Shown in pieces: positions 4,114 through 60,035 of a stretch of 64,000 nt of DNA. The notes under the pieces were generated by a model, which saw only the letters and a program-made list of their open reading frames with translations, searched no databases and was not told the DNA's origin. The position numbers and the translations under genes were made by a program. The stretch lies in NCBI GenBank assembly GCA_030062745.1, contig CP099854.1, forward strand, positions 9,140,014-9,204,013, written 5' to 3'. The stretch's first letter is position 1. Each line of letters opens with the position of its first letter. The DNA comes from Capitulum mitella (Eukaryota; Arthropoda; Thecostraca; Pollicipedomorpha; Pollicipedidae).

Positions 4114-4706
4114 GTCTGCTCGCTCCCGGGCTGCGCTGCAAACAAAGGACAGCCCCGGCCGGCCAAGGCAGAACAGCGGGCTGTGTACAAGCCAGCCATG
4201 GACACTGGAATGCTATTGGTGCATGCGCCCAATTGGTCCTGGACAACCATTGTTGTTTTCCACGTTGCCCTGTAGGCACAAAAGTTGCCACAGCTACATT
4301 GAACCAAACCGACGATTTTGTCCCCTCTGCCATGTCGGCAAGAAATCACAGAGCATCGTTGCTTAGGTTTTGTTATCGAATGCATTTTACACATTTGCCC
4401 ACCATGTTGATTTCAGCCAAGCCGGTAGAGGCGCTTCCACCCACCAGTTCACTTTTCAGCTCCTTAGCAGAAACGGCCGCGGTGCTTACACAACAACAGA
4501 ATAGGCTATCTTTTCGACGTCCATCTCTATCACGGCATCCAACGAAAAACCTCTGTGCACGTTACCAAGATAAATGGGCTTGTCTCGCACCTGACGCCGA
4601 CAGCAAAGCAGCGCCAGCGCCTGGCGAAATCACCATCAAGTTAGTTCAAAGTATGAGGGCTGAATAGCAAAGATCTTATGTCTTCTAACGGGCAAAAATC
4701 GTCTGA

Positions 4707-5627: not shown

Positions 5628-6754
5628 AACAATGAAAAGCGGAACGAGACTGAAGTTTGACACGTAATATGTCATTGGCAGTTTAACTGCATGTCCTTAG
5701 CGTCACCTGACCCAAGGTTACGGGAGGTCAGGGTCACGGGTCGGGACAATTTCGGCTTCCGTTGTAATGCATCATGTGATAGGTGTTTCCTGGCCCATGT
5801 GACACGGAGATTCTAAGGAATGAAGTTTTCTTAGAGCCTTAGGCTAAAAAGAAGACCTGAAATGGCCCTAGTCATCCTGCACATGCAACACTGCAACATT
5901 TTATAATTTTGTGTTTGGAGTATGTACCATGAACACGCTAGGGACCTCCATCTGACATCTCTGGATTACCTTACAAGTTAGTTTGTCCATGTTGCACATT
6001 TCCACAGAATGTTGCACAGCATTGCAAAGGGTGATATTTAGACACCGACCATCCAGAACGTCAAACAGACGCCACCACTTTACTCTTTAAGCTGAAAGCT
6101 GTATAAAACCACCAAAGGCCAAGCTACGAAAAAAAATATTCCAATGTTGCAAGAAACTACCTTGTAATTTGCACGTGCAAATTGTTGCAGGAAAATTCCA
6201 TAATCTATCTGACCATCTTAAACACAGTTTATTCAACTGCTTTTCTAAAATGCATTTTCACGGGACCAGGAAAATGAAGAATACATGTTTGACCTAGAAT
6301 TACCTAAAATGAGATCACATGAGCTCTCAGATTACGCTGATATGAAATGTAAGCCACAGCCACTATAAACTGTGCAAGTCCCGACGTACCTACCGGCAGT
6401 ACGGCGGTAAAGTAAAATTGAACGTCAAATCGCGAAACATGGTCGTCTTTATGATGCTATTAAGGCCTGACCTAAGACGACGTCGTTTCCAATAAAATGC
6501 CGGTATGTGCCACATTGATGTAAAGAAACGTACCGAAAGCTTTACGACGCTCTGTTTGTTCGTTTGGGGAATATCTAAAAAGTACGCCAGGGGGTGTTAG
6601 ACGCCCGCCCCAAAGCCAATGGCGGGTTAACCTAGTCTTTGCAATGAGTAGTTTCGGAACTTCTTCCTGGGTACCAGTGTTGCTGATCAAGGGGAAACGA
6701 AGATCAAGGGTTAGCTGTGAATTGCCCACTTTTCTTAAGAGTGGAACCAGGCCA
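5628..6754. other. AT-rich intergenic DNA, no gene seen
   Basis: No family is recognisable on either strand. The longest frame (minus, 6472-6729) has an ordinary composition but no start or splice context that I trust. Confidence 0.5.
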
Positions 6755-7835
6755 CGTTTTTAGGATGTATCTCAGGCGTGTTTTGGTACTATTGAAGGTA
6801 AAAAAGTGTCTGTCAGGAATATCGTTTTCAAGTTAGAACTTAGCCCTTTTCCGCGTTGAGGGGGAGGGGGAAGATTCTGCTCCCTCCTTCGATCTTTCAC
6901 TCGACATTCCCGGGCTTTCCGGAACTGCTTCACAAAACTCGGCAACTTGGCAACATCCAGAGACACAGCTTCGCAACAACTATAACTTGGCAACAGAAAC
7001 GGACGTGGTAACATCCGGGGAATATATGACGCAGCACAGCGTCCTCTGTCTGCGTTTTACTTTTTTGTCAATGTCAGGTCGGGTCACGGAGTCGTACCCT
7101 AACATGCCCGTGCCTGTACCTCACATCAAGTGATGTAGGGTACATCACGTCACGCTATGGCCGTCTGTATCACGTCACGTTATGGCTGTTGTGCGAGGGC
7201 CATAAACATGGCTTCTAGGGCTATAGCCGATTGAGACAATTAGAATCGTTTTCAAATAGCACTGAGTGACCCAGTGACATCCCATGCGACTTTGAGGTCA
7301 CTGATGTCATCAAAGGTCAAAGTTTGTAAGCTGATTTGATGAACATGCGACCATGACGGTTTGTCCTTTTCCATGATCCTGGTGCCGCCAATGACAGCAT
7401 TATACAAACAGTGCAATATTATTTGCTCTTCTTAAACATAACATGACTGGAAGAAGATAAAAAATATATTTTTAACTTTCATTCTAACTCAGTTTTAAGA
7501 CAATATTCCTCCTATTTTGCAAGGGCTATGGACGCCCTTGAATTTTCTGAAAATGCAAAATGTATGAATCATAAGAAAAGACCCATCGATTAGCTCTAGA
7601 TTCATGCCAGTTTCATCGAAATCGGTCGTAAGGGAGCAGAGTATAGCAAATCAAAAGCTACCACACTTTCTGACGTTTTTTTGCTTCCTGTGTTCACCTC
7701 TTTCCGGGCGTTCGAAAAGTTTCTTCATAAAAACGCAGTTTACGTCAAGGCGATTCGATTTTCTTCTGTTACGACCAAATCGGACGAAAAGTTCTCGGGA
7801 TCAGGTGGGAGCGCAGAACACCCTCCCCTCTCATA
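6755..7835 (+). mobile_element. Diverged copy of the TTAA-flanked 1.2-kb element
   Basis: Follows the same order of segments as the better copy at 8147-9353: a CTCAGG..TTTTGG..TTGA(A/G)GGTAAA block, the GGTCGGGTCACGGAG block (about 7078-7092), the block GGTCA..CAAAGGTCA (about 7297-7321), GTGCCGCC, TTTCATCGAAATCGGTCG (7610-7627) and a TTTACGTCA..CGATTCG block. Many small indels separate it from the others and the terminal repeats are gone. A GGGGGAGGGGGAAGATTCTG segment near 6861-6880 matches a fragment near 50050. Confidence 0.65.
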
Positions 7836-7867
7836 CGGCCATGCGCCCTAGCGGTATGGGTGTTGGA

Positions 7868-8128
7868 CAGGCACGTAGCCAAAGGGAACCATGGGGGCAT
7901 GGCCCCTCCTGAGCCAAGTGGTCTGCACTAGATATTTGGCGATTTCGCAGAAATGCGGCATTGTGACCATGTATATGCTTTAAGAACAAACATTATGTGT
8001 TTTCATGTGTGTTGAGTACGAAACCAATTACATAAAATCGCTGCCCTTCCCTATAAATTTTGTCATATGTAAGTGGCATATGACATTTGACGTTTGCCTA
8101 CCCCAGGAAAATTTTGGCCACGTGACTG
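7868..8128. mobile_element. Short inverted-repeat transposon (MITE), copy 2
   Basis: Same family as 5352-5620: CACGTAGCCAAAGG at the left, a CCATGGGGGCATGGCCCC block, a CCAAGTGGTCTGCACTA block, an ATATGTAAGTGGCATATGAC block and GGCCACGTGACTG at the right. About 260 bp and non-coding. I could not find a matching target duplication here. Confidence 0.7.
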
Positions 8129-8146
8129 CTACGGAAATAGCATTAA

Positions 8147-9353
8147 CCCTATTCCCGGCAGGGGGGCTGAATCCGCCCCCTCGGGTTTTTTGCTTGCCAA
8201 TTCCAGGCTTTTTAACGCAGATCCACGAAACTTGGTGACTTTTCCTAGGTATTCTTTCTACGTGCCGTGACAAAATTTCAAAATTCTTTTTTGCTCAGGG
8301 GCGGAGCCAGGTGACGTTTTTGGGAGGCACCTCAGGCCATTTTTGGCCATGTTGAGGGTAAAAATGAAAATGTCTGCCAAAAACAGAGTTTTAAAAATAG
8401 AACTTAAAACTTTATATGGATGTATAGTTAAATAGTTGGGTAATGTGCGGACGTAATTTTGTTTATCTGAGGTCATTTTCCAAGGTCAGGTCAAGGTCAA
8501 AAGTCAAAATTTGTTTTTTCGCTATACTATCGGCGCCGTTTTTTCAAATGCCGAACCCGGAATATATATCACGTAGAAGGGAGCCTTCTACTTGTGTACC
8601 AAGTTTCAGCTTGATACCAGGTCGGGTCACGGAGCTATGACCCAAAATGTCAGTGCGCCTACCCTATATTGCAATAGCCATAAAATGAAATTTTTGAAAT
8701 AGAGTGACTTCAAATGATTGAAAACGTTTACATATAATATTAAATGCACACGAGATCATTCCAAGTGCCCCCAAGGTCACTTGAGGTCATTTAAGGTCAA
8801 AGGTCACAAGTTGATCTGAAAAACGTGTGACCAGGACAGTTCCCCCTTTTTCATGTCCCTGGCACCGCCTATGCTAATATTATACAAACATTGTAATGCA
8901 ATTTGTACTTCTTTAGTATAAGATGACTAGTAGAAGACAAAAAAGGGTGTTTGCCTCTGTTGTTTATTCATTTGTTAAAAAACTAATTCTACTATTTTTA
9001 AAACCCCATGAACGTCCATGAATTTTCTGAAAATTACAGATTTGCGGACCCATGGTAAAAGCCCGATACATAATCTCTCGATTCATGTCAGTTTCATCGA
9101 AATCGGTCGATAAACAACGGAGTTATAAGAAGTCCAAAAGTACCCCCCATTTTGACATATTTGTCCCCCTGTATCCACAAATTTCAAAATTTTGAAAATT
9201 TCTTTTTATAAAAATGTAGTTTACGTCACAGCAAATCGATTGCCGTTTGTTGCGATGAAATCGGACAAGTAGTTCTCGAGATCTCAGGGGGGGGGGCCGA
9301 ATCCACCCCCCTGCCGGGAATCGACCATACCGTCTAGACCTCCGGGAATAGGG
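8147..9353 (+). mobile_element. TTAA-flanked non-autonomous element, copy A
   Basis: A 1207-bp element between TTAA at 8143-8146 and TTAA at 9354-9357. The terminal inverted repeat is CCCTATTCCCGG at the left, with its complement CCGGGAATAGGG at the right. The next-inner sequences at both ends carry ATTC(C)GCCCCC-type blocks. There is no transposase frame. TTAA targets and CCC-starting termini are typical of the piggyBac superfamily; membership is an inference. It lies 1.3 kb upstream of the GST start codon. AGGTCA half-sites cluster at 8470-8506 and 8774-8806. Confidence 0.85.
8774..8806 (+). promoter_or_regulatory. Array of nuclear-receptor half-sites in element A
   Basis: Four perfect AGGTCA hexamers start at 8774, 8784, 8794 and 8801. 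The spacings are 4, 4 and 1 bases, so the array reads as two DR4 repeats followed by a DR1 (AGGTCAAAGGTCA). Such direct repeats are the known binding sites of nuclear receptor dimers containing RXR/USP or HNF4-type proteins. Whether this one is bound is unknown. Confidence 0.45.
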
Positions 9354-9357
9354 TTAA

Positions 9358-10029
9358 GGTGACTTGTTTCTAAGCAGCACCACAGTCTTTATGGTAATGT
9401 TCGTTAAGTTGGCGAGCTTTCCGCTCTACCATATAGGCCTGACTACCACACTTCAGTTATGGGCCGCAACAACCATACTGCTCTTATCAGAACGGAGGTA
9501 TCAGCGCTCCTGGAGGCCTTCTCACAGCAAAAAAAGTGAATGTGTAAGGCCTGAGTTGGTGTCCTGGCTGTACGCGATAAAACCAAGGTAATTTTATCGT
9601 ATGTTCGTAAAGTATAGGTTAAATATTTATGAAATGATGCGGGCTGGCATAGACGCTTTTCGAGATGCCTGCATCTCCAGATTTTATGTCTTGTACCACC
9701 AATGTTATGAACGAGTCAATCGCAACATAAAGAACTCATGCTGCTGGGAACAAGTGACAGTTTCAGATGTTTTATTTCCATGCATCTACATATTAAAAAA
9801 TGAATCCTGAGTTAGGGTGGGGACAGCCTGCTCCCGCTACTGACCTTCTGATGGTACCGCCACTGCATGAGCTACCAGCGCGATGCTGTGATTTTGTTAA
9901 CGTTGCGAACTTAAAACATTTCCGGAAGTAGCCGCTCAAAGTCACACCATCACATGACGTTACGTAACTACTTTTACTTGAAAACCTACACTTTTCCCAG
10001 CACTAATTCTCAGCAGACTGCTGAAAACG
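9358..10029. other. Intergenic between element A and GST promoter region
   Basis: AT-rich, no recognisable coding sequence. Two short plus-strand frames (9364-9591, 9601-9810) have no family resemblance. Confidence 0.5.
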
Positions 10030-10655
10030 TTACGGAAACAACGTTTCTTCCAAGAAAGACCACGAAGAAAGCTTAACTTCTTCTTCCTTCACGAGGCCTC
10101 TGCGCCACCTGTGGTCAGTGTTCCTCCCCAGAGCCCTTCCCTGACTGCGTCCCTGCGCGCGGTGAGCAACGCGCCTGCGCGATGCAACGGTCCCCGTCCC
10201 CTCCCCCTCCCCAAAGGTCAGTCTCTCGCCAGCGCGTGCCGGGCGGTGGCTGCGAGGCAGACACGTGAACGGGAGGGGACACGCAGACGCAGACAGTCTG
10301 TACGCAGACGGGTGAGTGCGCGGGATGCGTTCACCTGTTTTCGTGTCTGATTTTTGCTCGGTGCGCCTCGGCGTCAAGACGGTAGTGGCGTCAGTTTTCG
10401 AAAATCTCCACGGAGATGGCACAGACTTCAAGTTGACCTCCGTCCATTCGACACGACAGTGGGCTCACGTCCTAAATTACGAGGTTCCTCCTCGCTTTTC
10501 TCGCCCTGCCGACCAGTTTCCGCCTCGCTGGCCAACTTCTTGAGCGGAGCCGGCCACAGCGTCAGAGCTGCATTTTGTCACCGGTCACAGAGGTGCGCAC
10601 GGCGCTGTCCATGCCGGCAGCCGGCTGTTGACCGTGCGTGGCGGCAGTTGCAGGG
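10030..10655 (+). promoter_or_regulatory. GC-rich 5' region and likely non-coding first exon of GST
   Basis: The GC content rises sharply here. A strong donor-like GTGAGT follows 10311, and an acceptor-like TTGCAG ends at 10653, two bases before the GST ATG. This suggests a 5' untranslated exon ending at 10311 and a 341-bp first intron. This is inferred from splice signals only. No TATA box is evident. Confidence 0.35.
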
Positions 10656-10799
10656 ATGAGCTGTCTGGATCTGTACGTGATGGGCCTGAGCGCCCCCTGC
10701 CGGAGCGTGATGCTGCTGACCAAGTCCCTCGGGCTGGACGTGAACTTCAAGACGGTGGACCTGAGGAAGGAGGAGCAGATGAACCCGGACTACGTCAAG
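10656..10799 (+). CDS. GST exon 1 (residues 1-48)
   Basis: Begins at the ATG and ends at TACGTCAAG before GTCAGG. Carries the first beta strand and the Ser12 motif. Phase 0 at its end joins to ATGAACCCG in exon 2. Confidence 0.93.
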
Positions 10800-13700
10800 G
10801 TCAGGCCGGCCGTTTCATGTGGGCGGCTGCAGTTATATGGCCAGAGGGGCTCAGAGAGAATGACCCCCCTCAAAGTCAAAAGTTGACTTTAACCCTATTC
10901 CCGGCAGGGGGGACTGAATTCGCCCCCCCCCCTCGGGTTTTTCTCCTTGCCAATTCTAGGCTTTTTAACGCAGCTTTACGAAACTTGGTCACTTTTCCTA
11001 GCTATTCTTTCTACGTGCCGTGACAAAATTTCAAAATTCTTTTTTGCTCAGGGTCGGCAACGTGTTTGGGAGGCACCTCAGGTCATTTTTGGCCATGTTC
11101 AAGGTAAAAGGAAAATGTTTGCCAAAAACAGCCCTTTTAAGATAGAACTTAAAACTTTATATGGATGTTGGGCAATGTGCAGATACACTTTTATTCATCT
11201 AAGGTCACTTTACAAAGTCCGGTCAAGGTCAAAAGTCAAAATTTGTTTTATTGCAATAATTTCGGCGCGCTTTTTTCAAATCCCAAACCCGGAACATTTA
11301 CGACATGGGAAGGTGTCCTGTACTTGTGTATCAAGTTTCAACTTAATATCAGGTCGGGTCACGGAGCTATGACCGAAAATGTCAGTGCGCGTACCTATAT
11401 CGCAATAGCCATAAAATGAAATTTCTGAAATAGAGTGAATTTAAATGACCGAAAACGTTTACAGATAATATTGAATGCACACGAAGTCATTCCAAGTGAC
11501 CCCAAAGCCAATGGAGGTCATTTGGGGTCAAAGGTCACAAGGTGATCTGAAGAACGTGTGACCATGACAGTTCCCTTTTTTCATGTCCCTGGCACCGCCT
11601 ATGCTAACATTATACAAATACTGTAATGCGATTTGTACTTCTTTAAGATAACATCACTAGCAGAAGACAAAAAGTGTTTGCGTTTTTTGTTCATTCGGTT
11701 GTTGGAAAACTAATCCTCCTATTTTTGAAAGCCTGTGAACACCCATGTACTTCTCATAATTTCAGATGTGTTTACCAATGGTAAAAGTCCTATCCGTAAT
11801 CTCTCGATTCATGCCATTTTCATCGACATCGGTCCATAAACAATGGAGTAATAAGGAGGCCAAAAATACCCCTGATTTTGACATTTTCGCCCCCCTGTAT
11901 CCACACGTTTCAAAATTTTGAGAATTTCTTTTTATAAAAATGTAGTTCACGTCATGGCAAATTGATTGCCGTTTGTTGCGATGAAATTCGGATGTGTAGT
12001 TCTCGAGATCTTAGGGGGGGGGGCGAATCCGCCCCCTTGCCGGGAATCGACCATACCGTCTAGCCCTCTGGGAATACGGTTGAGCGATTGATAACAAACT
12101 AACTATTGTCGTGAATGATTTGCTGGAAAGACAGAAATCTTGAAAAATGATACGCTTTTGTTTTCAAAGGCTACAAGTGTGTTCATTGATAGGGGCAATT
12201 TGCCCATGTTTCCCACGCTCGTAAAGAAATGGAAAGAGGAATACCAAACAGTTTTATTTTGGCCTTACCCCGTTACGAACCGGGCAACTGGCATGTCAGC
12301 ATGTGATATGGGTGGCTGTGATGTTTACCAAGTGATGTTAGTGGTGTTTATCATGTTCCTGACTTGACCTCTGTGATATGGCGCCGATGAACGGTTCTTT
12401 AACAAAGGACCATCTTCCCTGTGTCGGATCTCGTGGGTTTGTTCAGTTTGTTTTGTTTGTTTTGACAAACAGACTGCGTTTGTTTCTTTGTTTTCGGGCC
12501 GCCTCCATCTTCCGCGAGCGGAAAATGACCTGGGCTGGACGTAGCGTTACTTCCGTTTGCTCTCTTCCTTTCTTTCTATTCACCACCCATATCTAAAGCG
12601 ACACGGAAGGTGACGTCCTATATCGGGGGGGGTGGTGAGGAGGGGGCGCGTTAACCGGAAAATTATCGCCGTTAGTCGGTCTCGAATCCGAGACCTCCAC
12701 TTCGGCGGATCCATACTCGGGCCGATCAGGGGTGCTCTGTTCCAGATGAACCCGCAGCACACGGTGCCGACCCTGGATGATAACGGCTTCCACCTGTGGG
12801 AGAGGTGAGGCAAGCCTCACAGGCCGAGGCAGAGACCAGGGGACACGGCCGATAAGGCCTTTTTGCTCTGGGGTGCTTGGCTATTGGCTGAGAAGCTTTA
12901 TGCTATTTTTCCAGATAAACATGGCATTTTTTGTCCTGCGTTTTGTTTTGCAAATACGAACATTGTAACATAATTTGCATGATAATTTACTGCATGTCAA
13001 CATAATTTATTGCACGGATCGGACGTATGATGCACTCCGCATGTCATGACGTCAAGATTTCTGGCCGTTCCGTCACCGATTTCGCCGTCCCTGCGACAAC
13101 CAGCGTGACAAGCCCCGACGCGAAAAGCTCCTTGCAGTCAGGGCGTCGATCAGTGTGGCCTAATTCAGCCAGTTGGGCGTCACGAATCTAGATATTTATT
13201 AATGCTAATGGATCCCTCTGTTGCTAGGTTTCCTTGCAGACGTGTTGCTCCTCCCCTTGTCTGATACTAACCAATCAGCATTGGGCAAAGGACGTTACTG
13301 GGCTGGTGTCTTACTGCCGCAGGCAATACAAATCGGACGGTCAGGTGTGGATGCGCAAAGGGTGCTAAGGTCAGTTTTAAGACAATCAGTAACCAGAGGC
13401 GGCGATTGAGAGCCATGGCAGGAACAAGCCTGACAACATGGATTTTCATCTACATCCTTGACACGTCACTAACTGAACTTGGCCACACTGGCGTCGATAA
13501 ACCTCCCACCAACCAACCAGCCAGCCGACCTGCCGTTACCGCCTCGCCTGCTTTTGTCGCCACATCGCCTCGCTCGCTCCGTTTCACCGCCCCTCCTGCA
13601 TGGCGCCGCTTCTCTTGCCGCGGCCCCGTCCACCGGCCGCCGCTCCCAAGGCCACGCAACATTGCAGAGTGCAGCGGCTCACCCAGCGGGGGGGGGGTGT

Positions 13701-41306: not shown

Positions 41307-41390
41307 GGTTCAGTTATGTCTCCGGTAATTCAGACCGGATTGCGTGTTTTCTGTCAATGACGTATCAATCGTCAATGACGTATGACGTAT

Positions 41391-41444
<54 letters not shown>

Positions 41445-41548
41445 AGACGTACCTTGCCAATGCTCACCTTTTCCACGTGGTGATAAAAATGACGTCATTG
41501 ACAGAAAACACGCAATCCGGTCTGAATTACCGGAGACATAACCGAACC
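41307..41548. repeat. Palindromic hairpin with (AT)n loop
   Basis: The left arm (41307-41361) and right arm (41491-41548) are near-perfect reverse complements (e.g. CCGGTAATTCAGACCGGATT against its complement) over about 55 bases. Between them lie TGACGTAT repeats and an (AT)n tract at 41392-41441. Confidence 0.9.
41445..41525 (-). repeat. Left copy of an 80-bp inverted arm
   Basis: CGTACCTTGCCAATGCTCAC through CGCAATCCGGTCTG. Its reverse complement recurs, diverged, at 48690-48766, bracketing the satellite region. Confidence 0.75.
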
Positions 41549-42478
41549 ATCGGGCAGGCGTCAACTCACCCTAATCACTCGTCGACAGCGACAGTAGCGC
41601 TCCCGACGGCGACTGGTAAAAATATGAAACGGTTTGCTCGCTAGTGCTTTCAACTTGCACCATTGGTCGGCAAAGAGGAGAATGCGGTGACCGTGCATTA
41701 TCTCGAGCGACCCAGGAAGAGTAACGGGACCAAGGTTCGTAAGTCAGGGGTTCATGTGCGGAGAGGCTCGTTAGCCAAAGGTTCCTAAGCATTAGGTTCG
41801 TATCGGGAAAGGCCCGTGTATGACAAGATTCGTGTCGGAAAAGGTTGGCTCCGGGTTTGAGCCAAAGGTGCAACCCTGCGCCGAAGGTACGGTGTAGGAC
41901 TTAAGAGGCCACAGGCCGATAAAGGGTGCGATCGGACTTGTCTCGGACCAACAAAGAGATTAGACTAGGTTAGATTAAGTTAGGCTAGGTTAGGTTCCTA
42001 TTTTAGGTCCGTTCTTTTCCGATGCCAACCTTTTCCGATAAGAACCTATGTTTACTAACGTTTCGTTAAAAACCTTTTCCTTACCGGCCTTTTCTCTAAT
42101 GAACCAAAGGTACAAACCTTTTTCAGCACGAAACTAGCCAAGTACACGGGCCTTTTGGAGATAAAACCTAACACAACGCTTCGCGCGACCTGATTTCTTC
42201 ATTGAACAGGGCGAAGCCTGACCACACCCTTTTATCGGCCTGCGGCCTCTAGTGTTCTGTGCCGCGCCTAGCATTGGCCTTACATTACCGCCTAGATTCG
42301 GCTCAACATCACGCCCAATGAACGCTTTCCGCAGTCGGTGAAAGTTGGCGGAATACCGCGTCCTTAGTGTGGGAAGCGAGTCTATGACTCCTTCACTCAC
42401 GGCCACCGTTCGTGGAGCCACTGCCTCGGGTGACGAGCTATTAGGGTGAGTTGACGCCTGCCCGACCATTAGGGTATC
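41549..42478. repeat. Foldback segment with inverted arms
   Basis: TCGGGCAGGCGTCAACTCAC at the left end recurs inverted at about 42442-42467. AGAGGCCACAGGCCGATAAA near 41905 recurs inverted near 42228-42250. The centre (41940-42170) holds repeated GGTTAGATTA and CCTTTTCCGATA motifs. No coding frame is recognised. Confidence 0.75.
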
Positions 42479-44349
42479 TCTAAGTGGCAATGCTGATGGC
42501 TCATGTGTTTTAACAGGTTCAAAAGCCATCTCCTATACAAGTGCACGCCAACCATTTCGGAGTGCTAGAGACGTCAAAAACTCAATAGTCACGTGCAATG
42601 TCAGTAATGGAACACACCAAGGTTCCTTCTGGTGTCACATCACCAACTGCATATCTCTAAGTGTGAATGCTAATTGGCTCGTGTGCTTAACAACAATCAA
42701 AACCCATCTCCTATACAAGTGCACGCCAACCAGTTCGAAGTCCCAGAGACGTCCAAAACTGATGTCACGTGTAATGCTCGCATAGGAGCATACCAAGAAA
42801 TCTTCTTGTGTCACACCATCAGTTGTATGTCTCAAAGTGTCATTACTTATTGGCCCGTGTGCTATAACACCGTGAAAAGCCATCTACTTTACAGGTGCAC
42901 GCCAACCAGTTTGGAGTGTCAGAGCGGGTTGACACTCATCAGACACGTGGGAGCCAAGTGAGGAAGCACACCAGGACACCTTCTGGTGTCACACAATCGG
43001 TTGAAGATCTGTAAGTGTCAATAACAATTGGACCGTGTGCTTTAATACGGTAAAAGGCATCTCCTATACAAGAACACGCCAACCAGTTTGGAGTGCCAGA
43101 GAGTTCCAGAACTCCTCAGGCACGCATGGAAACACGCCAAGACACCTTCCGGTGTCCCAAAATCGATTGCACATATCTAAGTGTCAATGCTATTGGTTCG
43201 TGTGCTATGATACGATCAAAAGCCATCTATACAAGTGCGTCCAAAACTCATCAATCACGTGCAATGTCAGTAACGGAACATGCCAAGGCGCCTTCTGGTG
43301 TCACATCATTAATGGCATGTCCCTAGGTGTGAATGCTAAATGGCTCGTGTGTTTAAAAACGATCAAAACCAATCTCCTATGCAAGTACACGTCAACCAGT
43401 TTGGATTCCCACAGACGTCCGAAACTGATCAGCCACTTGCAATGCTAGTATGGAGCATACCAAGACACTTTCTGGTGTCACACCGTCAATTGGATGTCTC
43501 AGAGTGTCAATACTAATTGGCCAGCGTGCTACAATGCCGTGAAAAGCCATCTGCAATACAAGTGCACGCCAACCAGTTCGGAGTGTCAGAGCGGTTTGAC
43601 ACTCATCAGGCACATGGAAGCCAGGTGAAGAAATACACCAGGCACCTTCTGGTTCTCTATGTGTCAATAGCAATTGGCCCGTGTGCTTTAGTAACGTGAT
43701 AAGCCATTTACTTTCCTACACAAGTGCACCCCAGCCAGTCTGGAATGTCAGAAAGATCTGACACTTATCAGGCACGTCGAATCCAAGCGAGAAAACAAGT
43801 CGAGACACCTTCCGGTGTTACACACACTGTCATAATCAACTGCATATCTTTCGGTGTCATGATGACCCGTGTGCCTCAGTACCGTGAAAAGCCATCTCCG
43901 ATACAAGAGTACGTCAACTAGTTCGGTGTGCCCGAGAGCTCCCAAACTGATCAGCAACTTGCAATGCTAGTATGGGAGCATACCAAGATACCGTTTCAGG
44001 CCACACCACCGACTGGATACCTCGACGTGTCAGTGCTAATTCGCATGTGTGCTTTAATACCGTGAAAAGCCATCCCGTATACTAGTGCACGCCAACCCAT
44101 TCGGAGTGTCAGAGAGTTATGACACTCATCAGACATGTGGAATCCAAGTGAGGGTCGCATCAACACACCTTCCGGTGTCACAAAATCGATTGCAGACCTC
44201 TAATTGTCAATGTCATTTGGCTTCTGCGCGTTAATACGGTTAAAAGCCATCCATTATACAGGTGGACGCCAACCAGTTTGGAGTTCCCGAGAGTTACAGG
44301 ACTCATCGGTTGTATATCTCTAAGTGTCAATGCTAATGGTCCGGGTGCT
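42479..44349 (+). repeat. Tandem array of about 177-bp units, forward orientation
   Basis: The marker GCCAACCAGTTNGGAGT recurs near 42545, 42724, 42900, 43078, 43391, 43568, 43733, 43915, 44088 and 44267, mostly 175-183 bp apart; one unit near 43222 has lost the marker. Each unit also holds CTTCTGGTGTCACA, CTCTAAGTGTCAATGCTAAT and GAAAAGCCATCTC. Units differ by some 10-25 per cent by eye. Open frames across it are by-products of the repeat. Confidence 0.92.
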
Positions 44350-44353
44350 TTAA

Positions 44354-45557
44354 CCCTATTCCTGGAGGGCTAGACGGTATGATCGATCCCCAGCAGGGGG
44401 GCGGATTCGGCCCCCTCCCGAGATCTCGAGAACTACACATCCGATTTCATTGCAACAAACGGCAATCGATTGACCATGACGTAAACTACATTTTTATGAA
44501 AAGAAATTTTTAAATTTTTAAAAACTGTAGATACAGGGGGGCAAAAATGTCAAAATGGGGGGTATTTTTGGACTTCTTATAACTCCGTTGTTTATTGACC
44601 GATTTCGATGAACCTGGCATGCATCCAGAGATTATGGATAGGACTTTTACTATTGGTACACAAATCCGAAATTTTGGGAAAACTCTTGGGCGTTCGCAGG
44701 GTTTCAAAAATACGAGGATTAGTTTTTTTAACAAATGAATGAACAAAAAAGGCAAAAACACTTTTTTGGCCTTTGCTAGTCATGTTATGCTAAGCAAGTA
44801 CAAATCGCATTACAATGTTTGTATAATGTTAGCATAAGCGGTGCCAGGGACATGAAAAATGAGGAATAGTCATGGTCACACGTTCTTCAGATCAGCTTGT
44901 GACCTTTGGCCTTAAATGACCTCCAGTTACCTTGGGGTCACTTGGAATGATCTCGTGTGCATTTAATATTATCTGTAAACGTTTTCAATTATTTGAATTA
45001 ACTCTATTTCAAAAATTTCATTTTATGGCTACTACGATATAGGGTACGCGCACTGACATTTTAGGTTATAGCTCCGTGACCCAACCTGATATCAAGCTGA
45101 AACTGATACACAAGTAGAGGGCACCTTTTTACGTCACATATATTCCGGGTTTGGCATTTGAAAAAAAACAGCGCAAAAAGTATTGCAAAAAACAAATTTT
45201 GATTTTGACCTTGGCCTGACCTTGTAAAGTGACCTCAGATAAACAAAATTATATCTGCACATTGTCCAACTATTTAGCTATTCATCCATATAAAGTTGTA
45301 AGTTGTATCTTAAGAACGATGTTTTTGGCAGACATTTTCCTTTTCCCCCTCAACATGGCCAAAATGGCCTGAGGTGCCTCCCAAAAACGTTGTCTGGCTC
45401 CGCCCCTGAGCAAAACAGAATTCTGAAATTTTGTGACGGCAAGAAGACAAAATAGCTAGGAAAAGTCACCAAGTTTCGTAAAGCTGCGCCAAAAAGCCTA
45501 GAATTGTCAAGCAAATAACCCGAGGGGGGCCAATTTAGTCTCCTGCCGGGAATAGGG
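44354..45557 (-). mobile_element. TTAA-flanked element, copy C, inside the satellite
   Basis: A 1204-bp copy in inverted orientation relative to copies A and B, between TTAA at 44350-44353 and 45558-45561. Internal order is the same as the others, including the AGGTCA-type cluster (as TGACCT) near 44899-44938 with spacing kept but two half-sites mutated. The 177-bp unit resumes directly after it, so insertion postdates the array. Confidence 0.88.
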
Positions 45558-45561
45558 TTAA

Positions 45562-45830
45562 TACGACCAAAATCCATCTCCCATACAAGTGCATGCCGAC
45601 CGGTTCGGAGAGCCAGAGACGTCCGAAACTCGTTAGTCACGTGCAATGCCAGTATGGGAGCATACCGGGACATCTTCTAGTGTCACACCGCCGAATGCAT
45701 GCCTCTTAGTGTCAATGTTAATTGGGCTTTGTGCGTCAATACCGTGAGAAAACATCTCCTATACATCTGCACGTCAACCAGTTCGGAGTGCCAGAGGGGT
45801 CTGACAATCATCGGGCACGTGTATTCACAC
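45562..45830 (+). repeat. 177-bp array, continuation after copy C
   Basis: Two further units with markers near 45595 and 45773, the same orientation and spacing as before. Array character fades near 45830. Confidence 0.88.
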
Positions 45831-47100
45831 ACACAGCGTATGTCAGTCCTGAAAAAGGTGCGAAGTGGGGTCTTACTCCGCTTAAAAAGGACCAGGCCCT
45901 GGTATTGGTGGGCCTCGTGCGTCCCCGTGCTGGGCAACGCCACCCCGCCCATCCACGGCCCATGATGATAGTTCTTTGTACGTTGATCAGGGTACCGGAA
46001 GTTTCACTGGGCGGCTCCGTGGCTAAAAGTCCCGCGTCCCTGACGATGACCGGTATATTACTCTGCGTACGACTGTTGCCCTGTCAGTTAATGCCCTGTC
46101 CACTAAGTCAATTGCCTGAGATTTTTGCAATGGCTTGCACTGAAAAGCTTTCAATTCACTCCACGCTGGTGCTTTTTGCGCCTGCCCAGTTTCTATGGCA
46201 TTTCTGGTCGCGTTCCATTAGACCTTTTTTTATTCCCTTCCCGTTAATGGGTAGGCAGGAGTATCCCTCCATGCCTGGTTGATCCAGTTACATGAAATAT
46301 CATGGTTTGTACACTGCCTGAAGAATTGCTTTTTGTTACACCATTCACCGCTATTCTCTTTTCCTAAATCTACTCCCGCCACCGCTGATGGTTACTGATG
46401 GGCCTCGCGAACCGGGCAGGCAGGCGGCAGGCAGGTAATGCCGCCCAGTTCGTGAGGAATCCCATGCTCGGACATGAACTGAGGTTAATAAAAAGAGAAA
46501 TGTAAATGAAAAAGAAGAGGAGAGGAACACAAACAAATCAAAATCGAAAAGAAGAACATGAACACAAACTCTTTTGAGAGCTGTTTTCCTCCTTGGGACA
46601 CGGAAATTGCAGGAAATATGTTACCAACTGTTTCATTCCACCTTTTCGGAGACACCATTGGTAGAGAGAAAAGCATACAATTTGTAGGAGAGACAGCCAT
46701 TTCAGGCTTTGTCAGATGCTGTACGACTAAGTCCGTGGTGTTTTTTTTCAACTGCAGCCGGCACTATGACCTGGATAGTGGTTCGCAGAAATAACCCTTA
46801 AAATACACCAATTGCCTGTGTCCGGGAATTGGCTATTGCTCCACATTCACATCTCGCGCCACAAACGGCCAATTTCCGGAGCGCGCGCTGCGTCACGTGA
46901 GACGGAAACCGACGCTCTGGGGCGTATGATCGGAAGGTCGGGCTCCGGGCACCGACCAGCCGTAGCGGCGTACCAGATCCTTCATCGTTGTTGGTCTGCT
47001 TTTCTCACGTCCTTTTGTTTACCTTTGCGACCCCGTTGCTGCCACCAAACGCCTTCCAACTGGTAATCACACATTTGACTACTTTAGATAACACCATCGT
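45831..47100. other. Central 1.2-kb segment between inverted arrays
   Basis: No repeat units. A plus-strand frame (45722-46282, entering from the array) and shorter ones (46558-46794) have no recognisable domain. A TTAATAAAAAGAGAAA A-rich patch lies near 46486. If the whole structure is a transposon, this is where a coding region would be expected; I cannot identify one. Confidence 0.4.
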
Positions 47101-48689
47101 TTGGCTCCCATGCTCTCATTGCACGTGACCGATGAAGTACAGACCTCTGACCCTCCGCGCTGCTTGGCGTTCGTGCATACACGCGAAGGAAATGACTTTT
47201 GACGGCAATAAGGTGCGCGGCCATTGACACTTCGCAGTATGCCATCTATGCTGCGACACCAGAAGGTGTCTTGGTATGTTCCCGTACTGACATCTCACAT
47301 GACAGGTGAGTTTCGAACGTCTCTGGCACTCCGAACTGATGTTGTGCACTTGCATAAAAGGTGGCTTTTGATCGTATGAAAGCACACGGGCCAATTAGCA
47401 TTGATACTTTAGAATATGCAATCGACTGTGTAATACCGGAAGGTGTCTTGGCGTATTCCCATGCGTCCCTGATGAGTTTTGTAACTCTCTGGCATTCCGA
47501 ACTGGTTGCTGTGTACTTGTACAGGAGATGGCTTTTGATCGTATTTAAAGCTCACGGACCATTAGTACTGACACCTAGAGATATGCAACCGATTGTGACA
47601 CTGCAAGTTGGGGTGTTCCCGTACGCGCTTGGAGAGGTTTGGAACTTTCTGCCAACCCCAACTGGTTGGCGAGCACTTGTATAGGAGATTGTTTTGCACC
47701 GTATTATAGCACACTGCCCAATTAGCACTGACACTTAGAAATATGCAGTCAATGGTTTGACACGGGAAGGTGCCTTGGTATGTTCCCATGCTGCCTTTGC
47801 ACGTGACTGATGATTTTCAGACATCTCTAGCACTCTGAACTGGTTGACGTGCATTTATTTGTAAAAGAGATGGTTTTGATCCTATTAAAGCATAGGGGCC
47901 GATTAGTAATGCCACGTAAGGATATGCAATCGATGGTGTGGAACCAGAAGGTGTCTTGGTATGTCCATCACTCGCATTCCACGCGACTGATGAGTATCGG
48001 ACGTCTAGTCTCTGGCACTCTGAACTGTTTGCGTGCACTTGTATAGGAGGCTTTTGATCGCACATGGGCCCTTAACATTAAAAGTCAGAGCTATGTAATC
48101 GATTGTGTGACACTAGACGGTGTTTTGGTGTGTTCTCATACGCGCCTGATGACTTTTGGAACTCTCTGGCATTCCGAAATGGTTGGCGCGCACTTGTGTA
48201 GGAGATACTTTTCACAGTTTTAAACACGAGTCAATTGGTATTGATACTTAGAGATCTGCAATCGATTGCGTGGCAACGGAAGGTGTGCTGGTGTGTTTCC
48301 TCACCTGGATTCCACGTACGTGATGAGTGTCAGACCTGCCTGACACTTCGAACTGGTTGGTGTGCACTTACAAAGGAGGTGGCTTTCCACGTTATTAAAG
48401 CATACGGGTCAATTAGCATTGACATAAAATACAAACAGTTGATATGACAACAGGTGTCTTGGAACGTTCCCATATTGCCCTTGCACAAGACTGATGAGTT
48501 TCGGGCATCTCTGGCATTCCGAACTGGTTGGCGTACTCTTGTATAGGAGATGGGTTTTGATCGTATTGAAGCACACGGGCCATTAGCACTGACACCTAGA
48601 GATATACTACCTATTGCGTGACACTGTAATGTGTTTTGGAACGTTATCGAATCGATATTGAACGCGACTGTTTAATTTCGGATGTCTTC
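47101..48689 (-). repeat. 177-bp array, reverse orientation
   Basis: The same unit on the opposite strand: CCGAACTGGTTGGCGTGCAC-type markers near 47332, 47497, 47661, 47838, 48015, 48173, 48349 and 48519, about 157-178 bp apart, with AGGTGTCTTGGTATGTTCCC and GAGATGGCTTTTGATCGTAT blocks. Units are as diverged as in the forward array. Confidence 0.9.
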
Positions 48690-48766
48690 GACAATTTAGA
48701 CCGGATTGCGTGTTTCCTGTCAATGACGCCATTTTGATCACCACTTAGAATAGGTGAGCATTAGCA
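48690..48766 (+). repeat. Right copy of the 80-bp inverted arm
   Basis: GACCGGATTGCGTGTTTCCT through GCATTAGCAAGGTACG, the diverged reverse complement of 41445-41525. It directly abuts the last array unit. Confidence 0.75.
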
Positions 48767-49328
48767 AGGTACGGCCTGGTTGATGTTTTTTTTTTCTACC
48801 CGAAATGTTTACCATGGAGTAACAGGAATTATTTCATGATTTATTATGGGAAACAGCTGCAGAATGCAGTGGTTAAAAGATGCGCTGGTAGTTATCTGTT
48901 ATAGCGACAAGAGATGAGTTAGTGGGCGCCGAATGACCTTGTAGTCGGTGCGCCCCTAAGCTCCAATAACCAACCAAGATGTGATTTAGGACGATGATGG
49001 TGCTCCAGTGCACAACATTTTTGTATTCTTGCAACAGCTGACGTTTGCTTTTGCCACGCGCGCCTCATATGCATCATCCTGTTTGTCTGAATAATGGCGT
49101 GCGCTTCTAAAGGACTACCCCAAATGTCTTCGATTTTTCGGTTCAAAACAAATGAAAACTGCCGTCGGCCGATACAAAATGCTTTAAATCACTTGAAAAA
49201 CTCAGGTTTGGTGAGAGGTTAGATAAGGAAGTTTCCTTGTGAAACATTCTGAATCTTATGGAGAATATGTGTGTTAAGAGAGCATTTCCATATGTGTCAC
49301 ATGCCATATCAAATACATTGCAAGTATT

Positions 49329-54559: not shown

Positions 54560-55354
54560 TGCGCCCGTTTCACTGCGGTCCTGAGACGGCAGTCGAGCGT
54601 CGGCGGTGTTGGCGGCCTGGCGGGCTGCGTACGTCCGGGCGAGGACGGAGGCGGAGCGAGACCCGGTGCTCGTGACTGCAGCGAGGCGCCCGCGAGCCGG
54701 ACTGGCGACAGGGCGCCTTCCGCACGTGATACTGCGCTGCGAGAAGCTGGAAGAGGTCGAGCTGCGCCACTGAAACGTGAGAGGCCACACCCTCGGCAGG
54801 CAACCGAACGTCCGACGCGGGCCGAGGACCACCCCAGCAGGCTGTTGTGGCCCGCGCGAACAGACCCGCCGACAGGCGTGCTGGCATCCGCCGTCAGCGG
54901 CGTCCGCCGGCGGTCGGACCTGACCGTCCCGCCGTTGACTCACCGCGACGGCCGGAAAAAACAACCGCGGAATTTTCCGGACGGTCACTCGCGCCGTGCC
55001 GACCGGTGACGTTCACAGAGGCGCCCGCTGGTCGGAGCGGGCTGGTGAGCAGCTGTGCGCGCACGGCCGGGGCTGCGGACGATCGCGCCGCTCGGCGGCA
55101 CGGCGGCGCCGGTCAGTCGGTGGGCGGCGGGCGCGCAGACGGAGCGGTCACGTCTGCGGGACGGAGCACCGAGTGGTCACGGCCCCCTGAACGCCATCCT
55201 GTGAGCCGGACCGTCCCGTCTGACGATTGACTGACGGTCTGACCGCGCCGGGTTCTGTCGAGGCAGGAACTGACCCCGCACCGGCCCGGCGAGCCACCGC
55301 CGCACGCCTGTCGAACCGCCGGCCGCGCGAGCCAGCCAGCCAGCCGGCGCCGCC
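54560..55354 (+). promoter_or_regulatory. GC-rich island upstream of villin-like gene
   Basis: Very GC- and CpG-rich, ending in CCGCC directly before the ATG. Probably holds the promoter and 5' leader. One plus frame near 54590-54775 reads protein-like (LPHVILRCEKLEEVELRH, then stop) but is unassigned. No TATA box seen. Confidence 0.35.
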
Positions 55355-57845
55355 ATGCCCGACAAGGACCCGGCGTTCGAGGCGGTGACGCCGAACACGC
55401 CCGACTTCCTCATCTGGCGCGTGGAGAGCATGCAGGTGGTGCCGCTGCCGCGCGACAGCTACGGCAGCTTCCACCGCGGCGACTCGTACATCCTTTACAG
55501 CGCGGCCGAGCCGGCCGGCGCTGGCGGCCGGCCCGGCCGCGGCGCACTCGAGGTGCACGTGCACTTCTGGCTGGGCTCGCAGACGTCGCAGGACGAGGCC
55601 GGCGTGGCCGCCTACAAGACGGTCGAGCTGGACGACCTGCTGGGCGGCGCGGCCGTGCAGCACCGCGAGGTAGAGGGCCGCGAGAGCCAGCGCTTCCGCT
55701 CCTACTTCCGGCAGGCGATCGTGTACCTGGAGGGCGGCGTGGCCAGCGGGCTGACGCACGTCGGCGACCAGTTTGAGCCGCGCCTCTACATGGTCAAGGG
55801 CAAGCGCTGCCCCGTGGTGCGCCAGCTGCCGACGGTCGAGTGGCGCCACTTCAACGACGGCGACGTGTTCGTCGTCGACGCGCGTGAGCTGGTCTTCGTG
55901 TGGACGGGCGCGACGGCCAACAGCATGGAGAAGATCCAGGCGGCGCGGCTGGCGCAGCGGCTCAAGGACGGGCACGGCGGCGGCAGCGTCGTGATCGTCG
56001 ACAGCGGCGCCGAGTCAAGCCTGCCCGACGACGAGCGGCGCCGGCTGGACGCGCTGCTGCCGCTGGCCGAGCGGCGCGTGGCCGCCGCCGAGCCAGACGC
56101 CGCCGACGAGCGCGCCGAGCGCCGCCTGGCCGAGCAGCTGCGCCTCTACCGCTGCTGCGACGCCGGCGGCGCGCTGCAGGTCACGGAGCTGAAGCGCGGC
56201 CCGTTGGCGCAGGCCGACCTCGACCCCGACGACAGCTTCATCGTCGACAACGGCGAGCAGGGCATCTGGGTGTGGGTGGGCCGGCGCGCCAGCCGCCAGG
56301 AGCGCGCCGAGGGCATGCGCAACGCGCAGGGCTTCGCCCAGAAGAAGGGCTACCCGAGCCACACGCCGGTGACGCGCGTCGTCGACGGCGCCGAGCCGGC
56401 CGAGTTCCGCAGCCTGTTCGGCGAGTGGCGCGAGCGCAACGCCTCGGTCGGCCTCGGCCGCCAGTTCTCGGCGGGCTCGGTCGCCAAGCCGGTGCAGGCG
56501 ACCTTCAACGCCGCCATGCTGCACGGCAACCGCGCGCTGGCGGCGCAGACGCAGATGGTGGACGACGGCAGTGGAGAGCGGCTCGTCTGGCGCGTGGAGA
56601 ACTTCGACCTGGCGCCGGTGCCCGAGGCGGCGCACGGCAAGTTCTACGGCGGCGACTGCTACGTGGTGCAGTACGCGTACCGCGTGTCCGGGCGGAGACC
56701 ACTGGATCATCTACTACTGGCTGGGCGCGCACAGCAGCCAGGACGAGCGCGGCACGGCCGCGCTCAAGGCCGTCGAGCTCGACGACAAGCTCGGCGGCCG
56801 GCCGGTGCAGGTGCGCGTCGTGCAGGGCAAGGAGCCGCCCCACTTCATGGCGATGTTCGGCGGCCGGATGGTCGTCTACGCCGGCGGCAAGGCGTCGGCG
56901 TTCGACGGCGCCGACGCGCGCGACGCGCCGCTCGGCGACACGTACCTGCTGCACGTGCGCGGCACGCAGCCGCTCAACACGCGCGCCGTGCAGGTCGAGT
57001 GCCGCGCGCGCTCGCTCAACTCGAACGACTGCTTCGTGCTGCGGCAGTCGGGCGGCGCGGCGACCGTCTGGTGCGGCCGCGGCGCCACGGACGACGAGCG
57101 GCGCACGGCCGAGCGCGTGGGCCGCGAGGTGGCCGCCGCCGAGCCGACGGTGGTCGCCGAGGGCGACGAGCCGGCCGACTTCTGGGCGGCGCTCGGCGGC
57201 CGCGCCGAGTACGCCAGCGCGCCGCGGCTCGCCGAGCGGCGCGCGCAGCCGGCGCGCCTCTTCCAGTGCTCGAACGCGTCAGGCCGCTTCGCCGTCGAGG
57301 AGGTGGCCGACTTCGACCAGTCGGACCTGTGCGAGGACGACGTCATGCTGCTGGACGCCTGGGACGCCGTGTTCGTGTGGGTCGGCGCTCGCTCCAACCG
57401 CGAGGAGCGCCGCCTCGCCGAGCAGGCCGCCATCGAGTACCTGCGCACGGACCCGGCCGGCCGCGGCACGGGCACACCCGTGCTGCGCGTGCAGCAGCAG
57501 AGCGAGCCGCCCAGCTTCACGGGCTTCTTCGGCGTGTGGGAGGACGACTTCTGGGCGCGCCAGCCCAGCTGGGGCGCCGTCAGGCAGCAGGTGAACGCCG
57601 CCAACCGCGCTACCGAGGCAGTGCGCGTGCCGACCGAGGCCCGGCCGGACGGGCCGCGCCACCCGCTGCACGTGCTGCGCGTGCGCGAGCTGGAGGGCCT
57701 GCCGGACGACGTGGACCCCACGCGCAAGGAGGACTACCTCTCGCCGGAGGACTTCCGGGCCGTGTTCGGCACCACGTGGGAGGAGTTCCACGCGATGCCG
57801 CAGTGGAAGAGGGTGCAGAAGAAGAAGGCCGTGGGCCTGTTCTAG
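55355..57845 (+). CDS. Villin-like actin-binding protein, intronless, one frameshift
   Basis: About 829 residues if one base near 56690 is discounted. Six gelsolin repeats lie at about residues 15-125, 142-218, 260-361, 408-511, 527-612 and 633-730, followed by a villin headpiece at about 768-829 ending KKKAVGLF. Markers are FLIWRVESMQVVPLP, HFWLGSQTSQDEAGVAAYKT, WIIYYWLGAHSSQDE and EDYLSPEDFRAVFGTTWEEF. Villins bundle, sever and cap actin filaments under calcium and phosphoinositide control; the headpiece adds a second filament-binding site. The start has a good context (GCCGCCATGC) and DPAF as in other villins. There is no intron, unlike the other large genes here, and third positions are almost all G or C. 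The reading frame moves by one at 56690-56692. All six repeats and the headpiece are otherwise intact. Confidence 0.9.
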
Positions 57846-60035
57846 CGAGCTCGAGCGGGAGCGGTTCGCTTTCCTGTCACGTGTCCGAACTCGTTGGCGT
57901 GATGAGTGATGCTTTTCCTTTTTCCGTTGACGTTTGGTGTGGTGCAAGGCCTCGCATTTTATGCTGCGCTAAGTGTATCGGCTGTAACCGACGCCGACAG
58001 GATTATTCTACCCGTGGTTATGATTCTATTCGTTAAGTTTGTTATTCTGTTTAGTATGGCGACGGTTACGACTTGGCGATTTCAATGGCGTTTGACTTAC
58101 CAGCATAATCGTGATAACTGGGGCAAAATAATAGTTGAGTTATCCGTGCCCCGAAATTGAACTGAGCCACTGAAGCACGACTTGCACGATTTATCGTTTT
58201 GGTGGGAGTGGTCAAAGTTTGTAATCGACCATAAACAAAGTTATCGAAGCCGCCAAGTTTTTGTTCTCGTTGATTATGCTCATTAATCAAGAAATCAGTC
58301 ATGTATTTCGGCGTTTCTGTAAGATATGGAGTTCCAGCGATCCACGCCAGTTGCACTTAATGCGAAAATTGCTGACCATAAACACGAGGTCTGAAAACAA
58401 ATCGAAAGACGTTCTTTTTTTAACCCTCGCCAGGCCAACCTCTGAATCCACTTGTGCCGGGCCAAGGGGGCTCATAACAACCCCAAGATCTCGAGAACCA
58501 TAAGTTCCACCGAGAAATAAAATAAGGCTCAATGTCGCAAGAGGTTATCTTAGGTCAAATACCGCCTTGACATGTTTGGTAGAAATCATTGATAACCAAG
58601 GCTTAGACGTGTTTTTAAAAAGGACTAGCCAACAAAGCAATGCCTGCTTTGCTTGTTCTGGGCAGGAAAAAGGGGCACCTAAGGGTCAAATTTGGCCATT
58701 TGAAGGATGGCTAAAAACGATGAAAACATCGTCTTTTCGGAAGGGAAGGAGTCGTTGTTTTCTGAATGTATAAGAAGATATATTAGCTGGAATACTGCGG
58801 GAATGTATTTGACATCCGAACAAAGTCTCCAACTGACATGTTAAAGTCAAAGAAGGTCAGCTTTGGCCCATAAGTAGGGCGTTTCAAGCGTCTGTAGCAT
58901 CATCTGTCTCATTTTCAATTCTTCAACATGACGTGGCACCAATTTATCTAACTTTGGTTCGTCTAATATCCCTTCTACGTCACGGAACCCGAGCCCCAAA
59001 GCATGCTTCACGTTAGTCACTGAGATGCCAGGCGGCGGACACGGCCACATGCAAAAACAGAAAATTTAACGGGAAATTTGTTTCGCGATTGCAAGGGTTT
59101 TTATTTTGGTGACCAAACATATGAGGATTGAGGCAATACAAACTGTGAAGAAAAAAGGTGTAAGTCCGCCGTACAGGTGTGTTCGCATCGAAAAGAAACA
59201 TACTTTTCCAAAAATGTCACATTGTGACAGCTTAGGTCAACATGGGACTCGGTCACCCTTGCAAAGTCAGCTCTTACCATACGTCAGTACTTCTGAAGCA
59301 AGTATGACTACCGATAAACATTCCAAGACTGTAAACCGATGAGTCACGCTCGGCTGCAGCCCTGAAAATTTGGCATAAAACGGGAGCTGATCCTGGCTCA
59401 CTGGTCAAGAGGTGCCAATTACGAGCTGCAAAGGAATGACATGCACCAGAGTGTGCATTTAAGCTTCAAAGCCATCGAACCTGGACCCACAATCTCAAAA
59501 ATAAACGTAAAAAGGCTAAAATCTGGCTGACCTAAGGTCAGTTACCCGAACACCCCCAAAACATCTGAGATAGCAGAATTGTTTCATTTGTCATGGTCTA
59601 TCAATACGGTAAGTTTCACATCAATCGATACGTTTCACAAATTTCATGTCACTTCCGATTTCTGGAGCGTGGTCCTACTTGACCAAAGTCAATGGTATGA
59701 GGTGACCCGGAGTTGCAAAACCGATACAATGTATAAAAATGGCGCATGCAGAGGTACACCGCATTTCACTTCTCTGCGCCTTGTCGTTTTTGTCTGTCCT
59801 GAGAAAACTGGAGGGAGGGGACTCTCATGATCTCTTCCCCGGCCCGGCGAAGGATAAGGGAATACCGACTGCACAGTCGCCGTGACAAGTCACAAAAAGC
59901 CACGTAATGCATCCGCGGTCACGTCCGCCACGACCTCGTCACTGGGATGCCCCATTGCACCAATGTCATACGCACGTTCGCTTACGTGTGTGTTGCGTAA
60001 TTCGGAAAAAAACCTCCTTGAACGCGTTTGAACTA
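57846..60035. other. Downstream region, possible diverged TTAA element, no gene
   Basis: A polyadenylation-like AATAAA lies at 58516. TTAACCCTCGCCAGGCC at about 58420 and AAGATCTCGAGAACCA near 58483 recall the ends of the TTAA elements, and CCCGGCCCGGCGAAGGATAA near 59840 could be the other end. This is weak. A minus frame at 58847-59050 (67 codons) looks protein-like but is unassigned. Confidence 0.3.

Follow-up and report, generated by a model that had tools for sequence, protein, structure and literature searches.

We analyzed a 64,000-nucleotide stretch of the Capitulum mitella genome (C16:9140014-9204013 of a 477-Mb assembly of 16 contigs, labeled C1 to C16), here called the window, and found that it contains what is very probably an old, non-autonomous copy of a Merlin (IS1595/IS1016-related) cut-and-paste transposon with a foldback body plan. 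The window copy is left-truncated, twice interrupted by other transposons, and noncoding. The family to which it belongs has terminal inverted repeats with 5'-GG tips, 9-bp target site duplications and, in some long copies, exons predicted to encode an IS1595-type DDE transposase, and these three features together fit the Merlin superfamily. In the layout that we propose, each end has a flank domain of ~375 bp that starts with GGTAATCC and, on its inner side, an array of ~177-bp units, with the two ends mutually inverted around an inner domain; some copies of ~20 kb add a four-exon transposase. The window copy has lost its outer left end and taken in the two other transposons.

Opposed arrays in the window and elsewhere in the genome

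Self-comparison of the window returned an inverted pair at 41448-41539 and 48682-48773 (92 bp, 88% identity, E=4e-29), confirming the inverted arms of ~80 bp that an initial annotation of this DNA had described. Its two opposed 177-bp arrays were also recovered when the window was searched with a hidden Markov model (HMM) of the unit, as 14 rows on the + strand at 42521-45823 (units of ~177-178 bp) and 10 rows on the - strand at 47050-48713; no unit was detected in the rest of the window at E<=1e-3. Mean identity among 19 aligned units was 70-71% both within and between arms, and three subtypes could be read from the alignment, each of them present in both arms. A tree of 18 units, from which the partial unit F5p was excluded, left the two arms unseparated, with 5 label changes versus a mean of 6.2 in shuffles (128 of 500 shuffles were as low).

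Searches of the whole genome with the arm and with the unit, which the initial annotation had proposed, showed that both recur together and in opposed pairs. Of 114 candidates for a 584-bp array query, 40 were scored and yielded 269 matches; a 371-bp terminal-domain query gave 40 matches (40 scored of 557 candidates), and a 98-bp arm query gave 25 matches, 3 of them inside the window. Among the 40 scored of 557 terminal-domain candidates, 11 pairs of (+) and (-) tips were found, spaced 1.4-26.7 kb apart. Among the unit matches listed, 6 of the 11 pairs had + units near the left tip and - units near the right tip, C9:15.85 Mb had + units only, C1:34.08 Mb and C11:16.54 Mb had one unit row each, and the C6 pair had none. 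We also compared 14 other arm-bearing stretches, which were cut at 8-10 kb. Seven had + arrays followed by - arrays (L046, L047, L048, L050, L051, L059, and L062), and five had units in one orientation (L053, L054, L057, L058, and L061), although the cut may have left these one-way cases incomplete. L056 had + units inside the arm and 2 - units outside it, and L055 had no units. Long inverted ends made up of tandem repeats, the mark of foldback elements, were present in the window and in 7 of these 14 stretches, and the large foldback element offered as one reading in the initial annotation is borne out by the opposed arm and unit pairs elsewhere, together with the target site duplications described below.

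The family appears to have spread recently, with near-identical arrays on four contigs: those on C5 (two arrays), C14, C2, and C15 were 98.2-100% identical over 3.58 kb, and the C5 and C14 copies differed in flanking sequence. Two left ends on C5, at ~1984905 and ~2017051, lie 32 kb apart with arrays 99.7% identical, and these two copies are possibly a segmental duplication.

Element tips and target site duplications

An alignment of 19 arm ends from elsewhere in the genome with the right end of the window copy placed the element tips well outside the arms. The terminal flank domain is ~375 bp long, and the inverted arm of ~80 bp is its inner part only; 14 of the 19 external ends and the window right end share one outer point, mostly ~285 bp beyond the arm. 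The arms were initially taken as the ends of the element, a placement that does not hold, since the terminal domain continues to the tip sequence given above. Ten of the 15 ends at the shared outer point start with GG, and 5 are exactly GGTAATCC. Among tips fetched for 10 of the pairs, 19 of 20 start with GG and 17 of 20 match that sequence exactly, in a sample whose source search favors intact tips.

An exact 9-mer was present on both sides at 6 of the 10 fetched tip pairs (90-bp tips), the C9 pair, in which the 9-mer is offset by one base, being counted among the 6. The same test applied to mismatched left/right pairings gave 0 of 90. Merlin elements have target duplications of 8 or 9 bp.

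The inner 32 bp of both window arms were in register with the unit, this register being the best of 178 on either side; CAAGTGCACGCCAACCAGTT, the 20-bp stretch of the unit that is best conserved, overlaps this part of the arm. This unit-like stretch is located ~345-375 bp from the true tip. Most simply, and by analogy with the foldback element Tetris, the flank domain would grade into a first unit. A distance of 60-90 bp between the unit-like stretch and the tip, which would parallel the element Galileo, was also considered and was dropped when the true tip was found to lie ~285 bp further out.

Transposase of the long copies

The C5 copy (L060 and L063), whose tips are 19.6 kb apart, contains four same-strand frames that together form a predicted four-exon transposase, in the order Cys-rich N-terminal part, VQIDET segment, WSDQWAGY segment, and HTNNIENLW segment. 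Five exon borders were read for splice signals: exons 2, 3, and 4 are each preceded by AG, and exons 2 and 3 are each followed by GT. The exon structure is a prediction from genomic sequence, with the end of exon 1 set by eye. The joined exons matched PF12762 (E=2.2e-20, 73.6 bits, cut-off 27) and NF033547 (E=4.3e-31, 108.5 bits, cut-off 75). Exon 2 alone matched weakly (PF12762 at E=0.0043, below cut-off; NF033547 at E=2e-4 over profile positions 58-138), and exon 3 extended the NF033547 match at profile positions 139-164 (E=0.045). Counting by eye gave spacings of 62 and 36 residues between the successive catalytic residues D, D, and E. These matches suggest that the gene in the long copies encodes an IS1595-type DDE transposase. 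A C8 copy (L058, 83-89% identity; right end not seen) and the C14 copy (L084) also contain exons 2 to 4, with exon 4 matching in two frames in the latter; the stretches examined for these two copies do not extend to exon 1. The C5 and C14 copies are close to each other (96-97%). The N-terminal exon on C5 (L063 1830-2306, - strand) is Cys-rich with a zinc-ribbon-like look and had no Pfam match; in passages of PMC8101967, described Merlins are said to be without the IS1595 zinc-finger domain. The long-copy transposase would recognize the family tips and would have moved short copies such as the one in the window.

Weighing the Merlin assignment

Several observations weigh against a foldback Merlin or against parts of that interpretation. 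Five of the 19 arm ends stop before the shared outer point (L047 left, L050 right, L051 inner right, L053, and L062), and several copies do not show opposed arrays, such as the pair at C12:17.04 Mb, which had only - units among the matches listed. Four of the 10 fetched pairs (C6, C10, C5, and C14) are without a 9-bp duplication, and two of these, C5 and C14, are the ~20-kb copies that carry transposase exons. No duplication was found at L046, L055, or L059, nor at the eleventh pair (C4:31.68 Mb), some of these ends being damaged. The window copy also has no target duplication in the spans searched, because its left end is lost. Galileo copies without matching duplications were interpreted as chimeric in parts of PMC3573991, and by analogy the duplication-less copies here may be chimeric as well. 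Among the loci examined, exons 2 to 4 occur in only three copies (C5, C14, and C8); the complete 10.9-kb copy at C4:31.68 Mb is without them, and there is no transposase in the window copy. The in-register match of arm and unit is modest, because the arm alone aligned with the unit no better than shuffles did (14% and 5% of 1,000 were as high). Finally, the mirrored order of units in the two window arms was not significant, with 22% of 400 permutations as high (unit F12 excluded) and 7.5% in a second test; the five outer unit pairs alone gave 0.5%, in a subset picked post hoc, and mirrored order in the window arms is at most suggestive.

Three other explanations were considered. The foldback ends may have been moved by some other transposase, the IS1595-type gene being no more than a passenger that entered a forerunner of the long copies. 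This is unlikely, although it would agree with the finding of exons in three copies only, of which those on C5 and C14 are close, and 9-bp duplications are not unique to Merlin, since portions of PMC4079207 assign Tetris, with 8-10 bp duplications, to Mutator. Against it, all of the Merlin features given in passages of PMC8101967 (GG tips, 9-bp duplications, and an IS1595-type DDE domain) are present together in this family, and no second transposase was found by Pfam in the frames tested, which covered part of the interior. It is more improbable still that a satellite array was inverted, or an inverted segmental duplication formed, at a single locus with no mobile element involved, an origin close to the satellite inverted around a breakpoint that the initial annotation had put forward as its other reading. 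Within the window, the intermixing of units between the opposed arrays (5 label changes versus 6.2 in shuffles), the missing target duplication, and the hairpin with (AT)25 on the left, which shows local rearrangement, would all be compatible with such an event. However, many sites on different contigs have tips and arrays together, with 9-bp duplications, and the arms, right tip, units, and centre of the window copy all match family copies, which refutes a single-locus inversion for the family. Least credible of all are two Helentron (HINE) elements placed head to head, which would account for the satellite-like array, the nearby microsatellite, and the lack of a duplication at the window copy (features described in parts of PMC7492417), but HINE arrays are one-way and without duplications in that source, in contrast to the long inverted ends found here, and the 9-bp duplications and the DDE transposase of some long copies already refute this explanation.

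Structure of the window copy

The features of the window copy are listed in Table 1. The 1.2-kb segment first annotated as the centre is the TTAA-flanked insertion inside the forward array, and the "foldback segment" first annotated as part of the element is a later insertion flanked by ACCAT; with both recognized as later insertions, the true centre is 45824-47039. Over 976 bp, this centre shares 85% identity with the inner region of the C9:14.15-Mb copy. No Pfam family was detected in seven open frames overlapping it. Exon 1 of the transposase resembled sequence homologous to the centre weakly (L045, E=3e-4; L002 and L047, E about 0.01), and a transposase relic in the window centre was rejected as a candidate, this resemblance being too weak to claim. 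Rfam (gathering level) and tRNA scans of the whole window returned no match, and exact DNA patterns had no match in the viral contigs or genome contigs searched, an expected outcome for animal DNA.

Table 1. Features of the probable foldback Merlin copy and its nested insertions in the window
Feature	Position	Strand	Remarks
Inverted copy of inner left arm	41307..41362	-	98%, 56 bp; outside left arm, pairs with it as a hairpin
(AT)25 microsatellite	41393..41442		Lies where the left terminal domain would have its outer ~285 bp
Left terminal flank domain, remnant	41444..41545	+	Outer side truncated; homology ends at ~41443
ACCAT, first copy of 5-bp duplication	41546..41550	+	Flanks insertion 41551-42464
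Nested foldback-like insertion	41551..42464		914 bp; terminal repeats CGGGCAGGCGTCAACTCACCCTAAT; ACCAT flanks
ACCAT, second copy of 5-bp duplication	42465..42469	+	Flanks insertion 41551-42464
Left unit array	42470..45823	+	Units of ~177-178 bp; interrupted at 44354-45557
Putative nested piggyBac-type element	44354..45557		TTAA on both sides (44350-44353, 45558-45561)
True centre (inner domain)	45824..47039		Between the opposed arrays
Right unit array	47040..48681	-	Units of ~177 bp; orientation opposite to left array
Right terminal flank domain	48682..49119	-	Tip at ~49119, reading inward GGTAGTCCTTTAGAAGCGC
55-bp repeat within right terminal domain	48923..48977		Dispersed; also in L051 and L062

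The hairpin formed by the left arm and its outer inverted copy is strong (fold z-score -15.6). It spans 41307-41548, is near-perfect over 56 bp, and encloses the (AT)25 tract at the lost left end; the outer copy ends within the later ACCAT site.

The insertion in the forward array has the structure TTAA, CCCTATTCC...GGAATAGGG, TTAA, that is, the TTAA duplication and CCC... terminal repeats of a piggyBac-type miniature inverted-repeat transposable element (MITE). Judged by these features, 44354-45557 is a putative piggyBac-type MITE inserted into the array and unrelated to its host element. Relatives in the window were found near full length at 8142-9353 (87%) and 10889-12079 (84%) and as pieces at 6730-7802; TTAA flanks were two-sided at 44354-45557 and 8142-9353 and one-sided at 10889-12079. 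The region 6730-12079 is a cluster of these TTAA MITE copies, two near full length and one fragmented. When 44354-45557 and one TTAA were excised, the score of the adjoining left unit piece rose slightly, from 30.8 to 33.1 bits; TTAA is part of the 177-bp unit consensus. The other insertion, 41551-42464, has matching ends of 25 bp and foldback-like inner repeats, and a relative with 67% identity is present in locus L025. Its excision gave a negligible gain at the join (13.4 to 13.8 bits), so the case for an insertion rests on the terminal repeats and the ACCAT copies.

Two coding regions were noted away from the element. A villin/gelsolin-type region at 55274-58036 (+ strand) has long open frames and 72-74% guanine-plus-cytosine content; the open frame at 55.3-57.8 kb, which marks the window as animal DNA, contains gelsolin repeats, with villin as the best solved match, and the reading frame shifts around 56.4-56.7 kb, through a frameshift, a short intron, or an assembly error. 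A frame with a C-type lectin domain (PF00059, E=3e-17) is present at 3418-4212 (- strand).

A possible role for the arrays

We conjecture that the arrays, whose unit would be related to the inner edge of the flank domain, supply extra transposase-recognition sites. The full form of this idea, in which each 177-bp unit holds a copy of a transposase-recognition sequence that also occurs at the inner edge of the terminal domain, mobility is tuned by array length, and the family seeds genome-wide satellite DNA, is speculative and, in our judgment, rather doubtful. The in-register match of arm and unit, overlapped by the best-conserved 20 bp of the unit, lends indirect support to a role of the arrays in recognition. 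Against such a role stand the shuffle result for the arm alone and the distance of the unit-like stretch from the tip, which is large compared with the Galileo site. If the units do carry recognition sites, then the foldback architecture would be a convergent outcome in another transposase superfamily, in a family that still has transposase-bearing copies and was recently mobile. The family also ties a DNA transposon directly to dispersed satellite DNA. For some foldback families, Tetris among them, no transposase is known, which makes the origin of repeat-array ends hard to test. In this genome, foldback ends, target duplications, transposase-bearing copies, and near-identical arrays coexist, and the question of array ends becomes testable: whether the transposase binds the units and whether array length affects mobility.

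Comparison with known elements

A foldback body plan with tandem-repeat ends is known from Tetris and Galileo, and tandem repeats are known from inside Merlin elements. No description of a foldback Merlin was found in literature searches, outside of which Repbase and Dfam fall, so that an entry may exist there; a general plant review was the one paper listed on Merlin together with foldback. Passages of PMC4079207 describe Tetris as a foldback element of Drosophila virilis with a flank domain, TIR-220 arrays (units of ~220 bp), and a variable middle, with 37 bp in common between flank domain and unit, and place it in Mutator from its duplications, without a transposase. The C. mitella family is like Tetris, as described there, in having non-autonomous foldback copies with a flank domain and an array in each inverted end around a variable middle and in the relatedness of domain and unit, and it differs in its ~177-bp unit, GG tip, 9-bp duplications, and the IS1595-type transposase of some long copies. 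According to portions of PMC3688188 and PMC3573991, Galileo belongs to the P superfamily, with a THAP-domain transposase, 7-bp duplications, and ends of up to ~1.26 kb, and in the former its outermost transposase-binding site lies ~70 bp inside the tip, the tandem repeats holding further ones. Galileo and the C. mitella family both have tandem repeats within long inverted ends, and copies without matching duplications. They differ in that ~345-375 bp separate the unit-like stretch from the tip in C. mitella, against ~70 bp for the outermost Galileo site. Oyster Helentron/HINE elements are presented in parts of PMC7492417 as of the rolling-circle type, with satellite-like arrays beside a microsatellite, arrays and flanks always in one orientation, and no duplications found. 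As mobile elements with satellite-like arrays near a microsatellite they are similar to the present family, which differs in its opposed arrays and 9-bp duplications and thus lacks both the one-way array and the absence of target duplication that characterize them.

The closest fit is to Merlin, for which sections of PMC8101967 give 5'-GG tips, 9-bp duplications, a DDE_Tnp_IS1595 catalytic domain, and terminal repeats of 24-462 bp; the word "Foldback" has 0 occurrences in its main text. Internal tandem repeats are reported there for some families, and they are on record for Symbiodinium Merlin families and several Repbase entries. The C. mitella family shares the GG tips, the 9-bp duplications, and the IS1595-type domain with Merlin, and tandem repeats with the interior of some Merlin families, and, unlike the Merlins described in those sections, it has inverted ends that are kilobases long, each composed of flank domain and array, and tip pairs up to about 20-27 kb apart.

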